A stretch of DNA of 64,000 nt from Candidatus Blastococcus massiliensis AP3. GTDB lineage: Bacteria > Actinomycetota > Actinomycetes > Mycobacteriales > Geodermatophilaceae. Under the pieces are notes generated by a model. That model was not told where the DNA came from. It searched no databases and was given only the letters and a program-made list of their open reading frames with translations. Below are positions 47,865 to 52,204 of this stretch, one piece after another. Made by a program: the position numbers and the translations under genes. How positions within the stretch are numbered: the first letter of the stretch is position 1; each line of letters opens with the position of its first letter. The stretch is from positions 134,899-198,898 of the forward strand of contig NZ_HG931174.1 of NCBI RefSeq assembly GCF_000582785.1, in the 5' to 3' direction.

Positions 47865-49883
47865 TCAGACCGACGCGGGAACCTTGTCGCCCAGACCGTT
47901 GGCTTCCCGGATCACGTCGACCACCGAGCCCATGATCTCGGTCAGACCGAAGTCCTTGGGTGTGAACACGCGGGCGACACCTTGTTCGCGCAGCCGCCGG
48001 GCGTCGCCGTCCGGGATGATCCCGCCGACGACCACGGGGACGTCGTCCAGACCGGCCTCCCTGAGGCCCTGGAGCACCGCCGGCACCACCTGCAGGTGCG
48101 AGCCGGACAGGACGGAGAGCCCGACGACGTGGACGTCCTCCTCCACCGCCGCGGAGACGATCTGCGACGGCGTGAGCCGGATGCCCTGGTAGATGACCTC
48201 GAAGCCGGCGTCGCGGGCCCGGACGGCGATCTGCTCGGCCCCGTTGGAGTGCCCGTCCAGGCCGGGCTTGCCGACCAGGAAGCGCAGCCGGCCGCCGAGC
48301 TCCTCGCCGGTGGCCCGCACCCGGTCGCGGATGTCGATGAGCGTCTCGTCGGCCTCGCCGCTGCCGGTCGCGGCAGAGACGCCGGTGGGCGCCCGGTACT
48401 CGCCGAACACCTCGCGCAGGACCCCGGCCCACTCCCCCGTGGTCACGCCCGCGCGGGCGCAGTCCAGCGTGGCCGACATGAGGTTCACGTCGGACGACGC
48501 GGCCTCGCGGAGCGCGTCCAGAGCCTTCTGCACCGGCTCCGGGTCGCGCTCGGCGCGCCACTTCTTCACCGCCTCCTGGGCGGCGGCCTCCACCGCCGGG
48601 TCGACGGTCATGATCGCGGTGTCGAGATCGGCGGTCAGCGGGTTGGGCTCGGTGGTGTCGAACTTGTTGACGCCGACGACGACGTCCTCGCCGCTCTCCA
48701 TCCGGCGACGGCGCTCGGCCAGCGAGGCGACGAGCTGACCCTTCATGTAGCCGGACTCGACGGCGGCGACGGCGCCGCCCATCTCCTGCACCCGGGCGAT
48801 CTCGGCGCGGGCGCCCTCGACGATGTCCGCGACCTTCTTCTCGACGACGACCGATCCGGTGAACAGGTCCTCGTACTCGAGCAGGTCGGTCTCGTAGGCG
48901 AGCACCTGCTGCAGCCGCAGCGACCACTGCTGGTCCCAGGGGCGCGGCAGGCCGAGAGCCTCGTTCCAGGCCGGCAGCTGCACGGCGCGAGCGCGGGCGT
49001 CCTTGGACAGGGTGACCGCGAGCATCTCCAGCACGATCCGCTGGACGTTGTTCTCCGGCTGCGCCTCGGTCAGCCCCAGCGAGTTGACCTGGACGCCGTA
49101 GCGGAACCGGCGGTGCTTGGGGTCCTCGACGCCGTAGCGCTCCTTCGTCAGCTCGTCCCAGAGCTGGGTGAAGGCGCGCATCTTGCACATCTCCTCGACG
49201 AAGCGGACGCCCGCGTTGACGAAGAAGGAGATGCGGGCGACGACCTCGCCGAACTTCTCCTGCGGCACCTGGCCGGAGTCGCGCACCGAGTCGAGGACGG
49301 CGATCGCGGTGCTGATCGCGTAGGCGATCTCCTGCTCCGGCGTGGCACCGGCCTCCTGCAGGTGGTAGCTGCAGATGTTGGTCGGGTTCCACTTCGGCAT
49401 GGTCGTCACCGTGTAGGCGACCATGTCGGTGATCAGGCGCATCGAGGGAGCCGGCGGGAACACGTAGGTGCCCCGCGACAGGTACTCCTTGATGATGTCG
49501 TTCTGGGTCGTGCCGGCCAGCTTGCTGACGTCGTGCCCGTGCTCCTCGGCGACCGCCTGGTAGAGCGCGAGCAGCCACATGGCGGTGGCGTTGATCGTCA
49601 TCGACGTGTTCATCTCGTCGAGCGGGATGCCGTCGAAGAGCGCGCGCATGTCGCCGATGTGGGTGACCGGCACACCGACCTTGCCGACCTCACCGACGGC
49701 GAGCTCGTCGTCGGGGTCGTAGCCGGTCTGGGTGGGCAGGTCGAAGGCGACCGAGAGACCGGTCTGCCCCTTCGCCAGGTTGCGCCGGTACAGGGCGTTG
49801 GACTCGGCCGGCGAGGAGTGGCCGGCGTAGGTGCGCATGACCCAGGGGCGGTCGCGATCCTGCGGCGATGACGGGAACGGCAT
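47865..49883 (-). CDS. ecm: Ethylmalonyl-CoA mutase (MeaA-type)
   Basis: B12-dependent mutase of 672 aa that turns ethylmalonyl-CoA into methylsuccinyl-CoA. It starts with RTYAGHSSPAESNALYRRNL, has the substrate-channel region GLSVAFDLPTQTGYDPDDE, and a C-terminal cobalamin domain with KPGLDGHSNGAEQIA (the DxHxxG lower-ligand motif) and SGSHLQVVP. The single-chain length and the short cobalamin linker match MeaA/Ecm rather than the larger methylmalonyl-CoA mutase. TAGACT is 8 nt upstream of ATG 49883. Together with ccr, this supports the ethylmalonyl-CoA pathway. Confidence 0.95.
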   Translation of the reverse strand: MPFPSSPQDRDRPWVMRTYAGHSSPAESNALYRRNLAKGQTGLSVAFDLPTQTGYDPDDELAVGEVGKVGVPVTHIGDMRALFDGIPLDEMNTSMTINATAMWLLALYQAVAEEHGHDVSKLAGTTQNDIIKEYLSRGTYVFPPAPSMRLITDMVAYTVTTMPKWNPTNICSYHLQEAGATPEQEIAYAISTAIAVLDSVRDSGQVPQEKFGEVVARISFFVNAGVRFVEEMCKMRAFTQLWDELTKERYGVEDPKHRRFRYGVQVNSLGLTEAQPENNVQRIVLEMLAVTLSKDARARAVQLPAWNEALGLPRPWDQQWSLRLQQVLAYETDLLEYEDLFTGSVVVEKKVADIVEGARAEIARVQEMGGAVAAVESGYMKGQLVASLAERRRRMESGEDVVVGVNKFDTTEPNPLTADLDTAIMTVDPAVEAAAQEAVKKWRAERDPEPVQKALDALREAASSDVNLMSATLDCARAGVTTGEWAGVLREVFGEYRAPTGVSAATGSGEADETLIDIRDRVRATGEELGGRLRFLVGKPGLDGHSNGAEQIAVRARDAGFEVIYQGIRLTPSQIVSAAVEEDVHVVGLSVLSGSHLQVVPAVLQGLREAGLDDVPVVVGGIIPDGDARRLREQGVARVFTPKDFGLTEIMGSVVDVIREANGLGDKVPASV

Positions 49884-50004
49884 ACCCGCGGAGTCTAGGG
49901 CCGACGCCGGGACGGAGTAGCCCCACCGGGGTCAGGTGGCCGGTGGCACACTCGATCGAAGGAAGGGCCCCGCCCTCGGCGAGACGGGGCCGGATGGGAA
50001 ACCC

Positions 50005-50313
50005 GTGGCGCGTGGGCTGGGACCCGTCGTCGTGGTGGTCCTCGTCGTCGTCGCGCTGGCGCTGGTGACCAGGTGGGCCTTCGGGCCCGGCTACGGGCGC
50101 TCCGCCCCGCCCACCGGTCGGTCGGCGGAGGGGCTGCTCGTCCCGGTCGCCACGGTCTCCTCACCGGAGACGGCGCGGGCTCTGCGCGCGGTCCTCTCCG
50201 ACGCCGGGATCCGCTCGACGCAGCGCAGTCCCGCCCCACCCCGGACGGACGTGCTCGTCTTCCCGGACGACGCCGACCGCGCCCGGTCCCTGGCCGCCTC
50301 GTTCGGCCGCTGA
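50005..50313 (+). CDS. Small membrane-anchored DUF2007-like protein
   Basis: A 102-aa protein with one N-terminal transmembrane helix (LGPVVVVVLVVVALALVTRW) and a C-terminal domain TVSSPETARALRAVLSDAGIRST...VLVFPDDADRARSLAASF. This resembles the DUF2007 'putative signal transducing' fold. GTG 50005 was chosen near the helix; an in-frame GTG at 49936 adds 23 hydrophilic residues. Its TGA abuts the murA stop on the other strand (TGATCA, 50311-50316). Confidence 0.7.
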   Translation: MARGLGPVVVVVLVVVALALVTRWAFGPGYGRSAPPTGRSAEGLLVPVATVSSPETARALRAVLSDAGIRSTQRSPAPPRTDVLVFPDDADRARSLAASFGR

Positions 50314-51594
50314 TCAGCCCGGGCGCTCGGTGCGCCGGACGTCGGCGCCGAGACCCTGCAGCTGCTCGACGAAGTGGGGGTAGCCACGGTCGACGTGGTG
50401 CACGTCCTGCACCTCGGTGACGCCGTCGGAGAGCAGACCGGCCAGCACGAGCCCCGCGCCCGCCCGGATGTCCGTGGCCACGACGGGTGCGCTGGAGAGG
50501 CGCTCGCGGCCACGGACGACGGCGTGGTGCCCGTCGATGCGCACGTCAGCACCGAGGCGCACCAGCTCGTTGACGAACATGAACCGGCCCTCGAACACGT
50601 TCTCGGTGATCAGCGCCGTGCCCGTCGAGACCGCGGCCAGGGCCACCGCCATGGGCTGCAGATCGGTCGGGAAGCCCGGGAAGGGCAGCGTGACGACGTC
50701 GACGCCCTTCGGCCGGTCTGTCATGGCCACGCGCAGCCCGTCGGGCCGCACCTCGACGGTGGCGCCGGCGTCGGCGAGCTTGTCGAGGACGACCCGCAGG
50801 TGCCCGGCCACCGCCCCCTCGATGACGACGTCGCCCCGGGTCATGACCGCCCCGATCGCCCACGTGCCGGCGACGATGCGGTCGGGCACGGTCGTGAAGG
50901 TGACCGGCGTGAGCCCCTCGACGCCGTCGACGGTGATCGTGGAGGTGCCCGCGCCCTCGATGCGCGCGCCCATCGCGGTGAGCATCGCGCAGAGATCGGC
51001 GATCTCCGGTTCCCGCGCGGCGTTGTCGATGACCGTCGTCCCCCGGGCCAGGACGGCGGCCATGACCAGGTTCTCCGTGGCACCCACGGACGGGAAGTCC
51101 AGCCAGATCGAGGTGCCGGTCAGCCGCGGCGCGGTGGCCACGAGGAAGCCGTGCTCGCTGACGATGGTCGCGCCGAGCCGCTCCAGCCCGGCGATGTGCA
51201 TGTCCAGCCCTCGGGAGCCGATGGCGTCCCCGCCGGGGAGTGCCACCCGGGCGCTGCCGCAGCGGGCGACCAGCGGCCCCAGCACGCTGATCGAGGCACG
51301 CATGCGGCGCACGAGGTCGTAGTCGGTCTCGGTCGACGGCTGGTCCGGCACGTCGACGACGACCCGCCCACCCCCGCCGCTGCCGGGCGAGGGCGTGTAG
51401 GTGACCTCGCAGCCGAGGCGGCGCAGCACCTCGCTCATGATCGCCACGTCGAGGATGTCGGGTACCTCGTCGATCGCCGTGCGGCCCGGAGCGAGCAGCG
51501 CGGCGGCCATGAGCTTCAGTGCGCTGTTCTTCGCCCCGGTGACCCGGACCCGGCCCGTCAGTGCCGTTCCGCCGGACACCTCGAAGCACTCCAC
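50314..51594 (-). CDS. murA: UDP-N-acetylglucosamine 1-carboxyvinyltransferase
   Basis: MurA (426 aa) transfers enolpyruvate from PEP to UDP-GlcNAc, the first committed step of peptidoglycan synthesis. It has [15 protein letters not shown] with the Lys-Asn pair at 22-23 and the loop [15 protein letters not shown]. The residue equivalent to fosfomycin-reactive Cys115 of E. coli is Asp123, as in M. tuberculosis, so intrinsic fosfomycin resistance is expected. GTG 51594 has TAGGCT six nt upstream, overlapping the divergent pduO box. Confidence 0.97.
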
Positions 51595-51600
51595 CGGGTC

Positions 51601-51610
51601 AGCCTAGGCT
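51601..51610. promoter_or_regulatory. Shared palindromic -10 for divergent murA and pduO
   Basis: AGCCTAGGCT is a perfect palindrome. On plus it reads TAGGCT at 51605-51610, 6 nt before the pduO ATG (51617). On minus it reads TAGGCT at 51601-51606, 6 nt before the murA GTG (51594). Neither side has a recognisable -35 box. Two polymerases could not bind at once. Confidence 0.75.
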
Positions 51611-51616
51611 TCCGGC

Positions 51617-52204
51617 ATGACCGTCCGGCTGACCCGCATCTACACGAAGACCGGCGACGCCGGGCAGACCCACCTCGGCGACATGAGCCGGGTGGCCAAG
51701 ACCGACCCGCGGCTGGTGGCCTACGCGGACGTGGACGAGACCAACAGCGTGCTGGGGACGGCGCTGGCCCTGGGCTCCCCGGAGCCCGCACTGGCCGATC
51801 TGCTGCGCAGCATCCAGAACGACCTGTTCGACGTCGGCGCCGACCTGTGCACCCCGGTCACGCCGGACCCGAAGTACCCGCCGCTGCGCATCACCGCCGC
51901 CTACACCGAGCGGCTCGAAGCGGCCTGCGACGAGTACAACGAGACGCTGCCCAAGCTGGACAGCTTCATCCTGCCCGGCGGCACTCCCCTGGCCGCTCTG
52001 CTGCACCAGGCGCGCGTGGTGGCCCGGCGGGCCGAGCGCAGCGTGTGGGCGCTGCTGGAGGCCGACGAGGCGGGCGGGCACACCGGCCGCAGCAACGCCG
52101 AGACCGCGCGCTACCTCAACCGGCTCTCGGACCTGCTGTTCATCCTGGCGCGCGTGGCCAACCCCGGCGGCGACATCCTCTGGCAGCCGGGCGGGCCGAA
52201 GTGA
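51617..52204 (+). CDS. pduO: ATP:cob(I)alamin adenosyltransferase (PduO type)
   Basis: A 195-aa trimeric adenosyltransferase that makes adenosylcobalamin for acyl-CoA mutases. The ATP-binding N-terminus is RIYTKTGDAGQTHLGD, then DETNSVLGTAL, and the C-terminal NAETARYLNRLSDLLFILAR signature. It matches the Rv1314c-type gene beside murA in M. tuberculosis. It supplies the cofactor for Ecm encoded 1.7 kb away. Its start and that of murA use the same palindromic -10 element. Confidence 0.95.
   Translation: MTVRLTRIYTKTGDAGQTHLGDMSRVAKTDPRLVAYADVDETNSVLGTALALGSPEPALADLLRSIQNDLFDVGADLCTPVTPDPKYPPLRITAAYTERLEAACDEYNETLPKLDSFILPGGTPLAALLHQARVVARRAERSVWALLEADEAGGHTGRSNAETARYLNRLSDLLFILARVANPGGDILWQPGGPK

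Follow-up and report, generated by a model that had tools for sequence, protein, structure and literature searches.

A predicted bidirectional promoter with one fused -10 element between the divergent, leaderless-type genes murA and pduO of a Blastococcus genome

The 10-bp sequence AGCCTAGGCT, located between the divergent genes murA and pduO, is probably the common -10 element of one bidirectional promoter for two leaderless mRNAs, and it was likely born by a deletion that joined two boxes. The window, i.e., the whole stretch of 64,000 nucleotides that was analysed, contains the following features of this locus.

50314..51594, minus strand: murA, gene of UDP-N-acetylglucosamine 1-carboxyvinyltransferase (TIGR01072), predicted leaderless; +1 would be 51594
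51595..51616, both strands: 22-bp gap between the divergent start codons, CGGGTCAGCCTAGGCTTCCGGC, read directly from the sequence; the same 22 bp occur in genome G004 (locus L008) of the same genus
51601..51610, both strands: predicted fused -10 box AGCCTAGGCT, whose central TA (51605-51606) is common to both directions; the fused layout is found in 6 of 186 distinct murA/pduO gaps
51601..51606, minus strand: TAGGCT, the predicted -10 hexamer of murA; 6 nt lie between it and GTG
51605..51610, plus strand: TAGGCT, the predicted -10 hexamer of pduO; 6 nt lie between it and ATG
51617..52204, plus strand: gene of a PduO-type cob(I)alamin adenosyltransferase (PF01923, TIGR00636), predicted leaderless; +1 would be 51617

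The source of the window is a soil bacterium, whose genus group includes Blastococcus aurantiacus and B. aggregatus; these are the nearest named relatives by PduO, with identities of 95% and 94%, respectively. The identity of MurA is given by a TIGR01072 score of 530.6 bits against a cut-off of 392.7, and that of the adenosyltransferase by a TIGR00636 score of 167 bits against a cut-off of 108.45, together with a match to PF01923. The start codon of murA is GTG, which reads as CAC at 51592-51594 because the gene lies on the minus strand, and that of pduO is ATG at 51617-51619 on the plus strand. The gap between them consists only of the 10-bp box and two 6-nt spacers, where TAGGCT occurs twice, once on each strand, with the TA at 51605-51606 in common, so that one -10 sequence is usable on both strands. 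The coordinates, the 22-bp gap, the palindrome and the distance of 6 nt from TAGGCT to each start codon, as given in the earlier note, were all exact on re-reading. None of GGAGG, AGGAG, GAGG and GGAG, looked for as Shine-Dalgarno sequences, is present on either strand of the gap. A scan of 51400-51800 for sigma-70 consensus promoters and terminators returned nothing, including no consensus -35 on either strand, which is little informative because the genome is GC-rich. The Rfam scan of the whole window gave no match.

Leaderless genes of Actinobacteria are reported to carry TANNNT about 12 nt upstream of the start codon (PMC3160421), and promoters of M. tuberculosis are described as having TANNNT without a conserved -35 (PMC3898074). 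The window genome is like these in the motif, its position and the peak there. The peak was determined from 249 ORFs called by a simple GC3 rule in the window and 20 stretches of 20 kb, of which one overlaps the window by 5.1 kb. TANNNT stands exactly 6 nt ahead of 19 of 248 first-start codons, 7 nt ahead of 6 and 8 nt ahead of another 6, and the count is 0 or 1 at all other offsets between 0 and 23. Among 2786 internal ATG or GTG codons, 1 has the motif at 6 nt and 2 have it at 7 nt. The peak at 6 nt indicates that the 6-nt spacing of the murA and pduO boxes is not arbitrary. In both genes, TANNNT ends about 6 nt ahead of the start codon; unlike the leaderless genes in the cited reports, as far as their available text goes, one box would serve two such promoters here.

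The two boxes are widely kept in relatives, where they are mostly separate. PduO was found in 111 of the 112 genomes of the family and, in a sample of the order, in 290 of 298 genomes. All 111 family pduO loci were read together with their flanks; murA is adjacent and divergent in 105, mostly without a common box, and in the other 6 no murA was found in the fetched flank. From pduO, TANNNT is 6 nt away in 60 loci, 7 nt in 45 and 8 nt in 6, which makes all 111; from murA it is 6 nt away in 90 pairs and 7 nt in 11, i.e., in 101 of the 105 adjacent pairs. Both boxes are present in 101 of these pairs. The pduO box is mainly TAGGCT (72 of 111) or TACGCT (21), the murA box is mostly TAGGGT (74 of 105), with TAGGCT in 18, and pduO is preceded by C at position -1 in 99% of the 105 pairs. 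The gap between the start codons ranges from 22 to 234 bp in the family, and in most relatives two separate boxes lie in gaps of 33-234 bp. Each box thus holds the distance to its own start codon while the length of the spacer varies freely, which indicates two leaderless-type promoters that are normally separate.

The wider set comprised 273 loci read around pduO, from which 44 duplicates were dropped and 186 distinct divergent murA/pduO pairs obtained; the sample outside the family was hand-chosen rather than random, with 60 places taken from a shortened list of the 298 order genomes and with weight on two families. Among the 186 pairs, a pduO box at 5-8 nt was found in 184, a murA box in 155 and both in 153. 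The 31 pairs with no murA box at 5-8 nt include 4 of the family, and the start assignment is partly uncertain for those outside it. The leaderless state of both mRNAs, which the earlier note had suggested, is supported as a prediction by the boxes kept in relatives and by a spacing that matches the leaderless signature of the genome. Its other proposal, that one box serves both directions, gains similar support as a prediction, in that TANNNT is kept at 6-8 nt while the gap varies from 22 to 234 bp.

Two side observations concern these boxes. At L048, L211, L212 and L215, all from one genus of the family, murA has no TANNNT at 4-9 nt of the assigned start and the pduO box is kept; the murA promoter was likely lost or altered there, or the start is wrongly assigned. 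Among the 43 loci with no adjacent divergent murA assigned (35 whose fetched flank showed no murA, 7 with a murA that is not adjacent by the set limit and 1 with no murA start assigned), 42 have the pduO box 6-7 nt upstream, so that the leaderless-type promoter of pduO seems to be independent of murA.

The 22-bp gap is the shortest one observed. It occurs in 6 of the 186 distinct pairs, none is shorter, and the next shortest gap is 32 bp. All six consist of 6 nt, ANNNTANNNT and 6 nt, where TANNNT stands exactly 6 nt from both starts and the TA is in common; two unshared boxes would need at least 24 bp, and the common TA reduces this to 22 bp. The fused core is AGCCTAGGCT in the window genome and G004, ACCCTAGGCT in Klenkia soli and in G072, which represents a third genus of the family (genome 88% complete), and AGGCTATCGT in two genomes of another family. 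Fusion is therefore found in 4 of the 105 family pairs. The phylogenetic positions of these four were determined with a careful DNA tree of 61 rows, hand-chosen from the 105 family pairs, in which they fall at three points. A single clade of all four is rejected with a p-AU of 8e-79 and a clade of Klenkia and the third genus with a p-AU of 0.0007, where the tested groups had been named after the first tree was seen. The window and G004 stand together in the DNA tree with mixed support (96 bootstrap, 60 SH-aLRT), whereas they are not sisters in a quick protein tree of 142 rows, which requires five changes. The fused arrangement is thus present in at least four separate lineages, i.e., the three points in the family tree and the other family. 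A search of 459 kb of the window genome (the window and the 20 stretches) found the order start-6-ANNNTANNNT-6-start once, at murA/pduO, and 12 other spacing combinations of start-ANNNTANNNT-start gave none in the same 459 kb; the sole site being the window's own, no genome-wide class could be shown.

At L241 in G176 and L246 in G224, genomes of another family, the fused core AGGCTATCGT adjoins murA, and the assigned pduO start is a later GTG behind GGAGG with no TANNNT at 5-8 nt, so that one side may have a leader there.

The palindrome AGCCTAGGCT itself occurs once in the window, where 0.01 copies are expected from shuffles, and twice in the 3.87-Mb window genome, where the control, i.e., the pattern read backwards, occurs three times; the genomic copy number is not high, and the location is the notable feature. 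In 108 family genomes AGCCTAGGCT was found 22 times, spread over 19 genomes, and the backwards control is commoner in most among the genomes listed. Inspection of 20 of these 22 sites found 8 that lie 6-7 nt from the start codon of a called ORF, and 6 of these 8 face one start only; starts on both sides were found only in the window and G004. Among the 105 family murA/pduO gaps, the palindrome is present in three (L003, L008 and L187) and faces both starts in two, since in L187, where the gap is 88 bp, it is pduO's own box at a distance of 7 nt from the start. It is absent from another 121 pair loci that do not belong to the 105-pair set (duplicates not removed). The palindrome as a conserved element was accordingly rejected, and on these counts the palindrome claim of the earlier note fails the check that the note itself had set, conservation wherever the gene pair occurs, whereas the two-box architecture passes it. 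The other fused cores, ACCCTAGGCT and AGGCTATCGT, are imperfect palindromes, which indicates that the common TA and the spacing matter and the palindrome does not; the latter is the result of both hexamers happening to be TAGGCT.

The fused state of the window is derived, with the two boxes joined and the central TA in common. Since TA reads the same on both strands, a pair of divergent -10 boxes would always carry a direct repeat of TA on one strand. With a single deletion between these repeats, the spacer would be lost and both boxes would stay 6 nt from their starts, which gives exactly 22 bp. Judged from the end states of extant gaps, each fused lineage is likely to be the product of such a deletion. 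The gap of Klenkia brasiliensis is 39 bp and contains CGCACAACCCTAG...CATAGGCTGCGGGC, and that of K. soli is 22 bp and contains CGCACAACCCTAGGCTGCCGTC; the difference would fit, as expected, a deletion between TAG repeats, one in each box. The nearest row to K. soli in the DNA tree of 61 rows is another Klenkia with a 39-bp gap.

The fused gap of the window appears to be constrained. It is identical to that of G004 at all 22 bases, while the two genomes agree at 47 of 64 fourfold sites within the first 110 codons of pduO and at 30 of 47 within those of murA, together 77 of 111 (69%). The chance of 22 identical sites would be about 3e-4 if the gap were neutral. This comparison suggests constraint in the two genomes; local exchange between the species could also be the source of the identity. 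A more general proposal is that divergent leaderless genes carry a built-in route to fusion, where the floor of 22 bp was reached at least four times at murA/pduO and a one-way ratchet to linked transcription followed, since a fused pair is hardly separable again because an insertion would have to fall exactly between the two start codons. We put this forward tentatively, as a possibility somewhat short of probable.

In the predicted promoter, the same T-A step would be captured by the housekeeping sigma factor whichever way it faces. The bubble would span 51606 to about 51619 for rightward transcription and 51605 to about 51592 for leftward transcription; the two would abut, with room for one polymerase at a time. 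murA would be transcribed leftward and pduO rightward, both as leaderless mRNAs. Occupancy of the common TA by one polymerase at a time, through steric exclusion, is plausible.

Two other readings of the box were weighed. The box may serve one direction only; the second hexamer would then be a leftover, and the other gene would use a promoter within the coding sequence of its neighbour. After fusion, the -35 position of each gene lies in the coding sequence of its neighbour and no -35 consensus was found, which suggests that one direction may be weak, and 6 of the 8 palindrome sites located 6-7 nt from a start are one-sided. However, TANNNT stands exactly 6 nt away on both sides in all six fused gaps, and the window genome and G004 agree at all 22 bp, with 69% identity at their fourfold sites nearby. 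The lack of a -35 also weighs less if M. tuberculosis promoters are considered, which show no conserved -35 (PMC3898074). Use in one direction only is thus unlikely. Alternatively, the palindrome could be an operator for a dimeric DNA-binding protein and not a promoter element, as a perfect 10-bp inverted repeat between divergent genes might suggest, the more so as the second genomic copy likewise lies between divergent genes (crgA and DUF881). In relatives, however, the halves move apart, each keeping the distance to its own start codon and not to the other half, and the palindrome is found in just 3 of 105 family gaps, with both starts faced in 2; we regard an operator as extremely unlikely.

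A different question is whether the fused promoter acts as a switch, in which the two genes compete for polymerase and the synthesis of cell-wall precursors is thereby coupled to B12 activation, as the earlier note had proposed. The common TA would make simultaneous occupancy sterically impossible, but most relatives have separate boxes, with only 4 of the 105 family pairs fused. We know of no activator site at the murA/pduO gap. Bidirectional promoters in general are reported to hold one polymerase at a time for steric reasons, and substantial activation of one direction represses the opposite one at E. coli bidirectional promoters (PMC12825309). On the other hand, five of five tested E. coli bidirectional promoters showed no competition at basal activity, which is too low for it (PMC12825309). 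Competition at murA/pduO may be negligible at low activity. With fusion sporadic and basal competition absent from all five E. coli promoters, the link between peptidoglycan and B12 is unsupported, and such a switch seems very unlikely.

The preferred reading, one box for two promoters, can be compared with known systems. It resembles the bidirectional promoters with a pseudo-symmetric -10 described by Warman, Grainger and co-workers, where divergent starts flank a common -10 (PMC12825309, PMC10268837). The commonest distance between starts in such promoters is 18 bp, and 10 and 23 bp are also common (PMC12825309). The spacing predicted for murA/pduO, taken from the start codons at 51594 and 51617, would be 23 bp, one of these three distances. 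The murA/pduO box is a bidirectional promoter candidate that would fall into the known 23-bp class, with both of its mRNAs predicted to be leaderless. It differs from the promoters of Warman and Grainger, as described in the accessible text, in that both transcripts are predicted to be leaderless, the gap consists of the box and two 6-nt spacers, and the unfused state is found in relatives. In M. tuberculosis, where closely juxtaposed divergent promoters are a common feature, prpD and Rv1129c are adjacent divergent genes like murA and pduO, and both of their starts were mapped at the start codons (PMC3898074); the available text does not state a single common -10 box for that pair. The promoters of the EcoRV restriction-modification system have overlapping divergent polymerase sites, as is predicted at murA/pduO, with consequences that were modelled (PMC5333194). 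They differ in being regulated by a C protein, and the accessible part of that paper does not describe a single common -10 box.

Bidirectional promoters are reported to be common in prokaryotes, and their origin at a single locus is not followed in the open-licence literature covered, as far as the accessible texts go. The titles and first lines of abstracts in that literature held nothing on the murA/pduO locus or on the fusion of divergent leaderless promoters, and no paper in it has both Rv1314c and Rv1315; Rv1314c is named as adenosyltransferase in PMC4428469, with no start site given in the available text. For Blastococcus with leaderless, none of the matches listed is on promoters by title. 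murA/pduO is a good natural case of repeated promoter fusion. With the unfused state, short gaps (32-39 bp) and several separate fusions at one conserved pair, the origin, constraint and effect of fusion become testable between sister species. The locus also provides a candidate for a minimal natural promoter of 10 bp and two 6-nt spacers, whose products would need no leader.

Some further observations concern the surroundings of the gene pair and other sites. Beyond murA and on the same strand lies the gene of a B12-dependent methylmalonyl-CoA mutase (47865-49883), and between the two an ORF of 125 aa (49936-50313) runs in the opposite direction, with no Pfam or NCBIfam match; its end at 50313 adjoins that of murA at 50314. 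A B12-dependent neighbour fits pduO and gives no information on murA. In L010, L011 and L013, where the gaps are 178-234 bp, the spacer has repeated GC-rich units like GCTGCAGGGGCCCGCCGCGAG, which seem to account for the length of these gaps. The second copy of AGCCTAGGCT in the window genome, at L002:1501-1510 (C2:1077244-1077253), lies between the divergent crgA and a DUF881 gene and is a second candidate for a bidirectional promoter, where both genes, by reading of the sequence, would have longer leaders and Shine-Dalgarno-like sequences.
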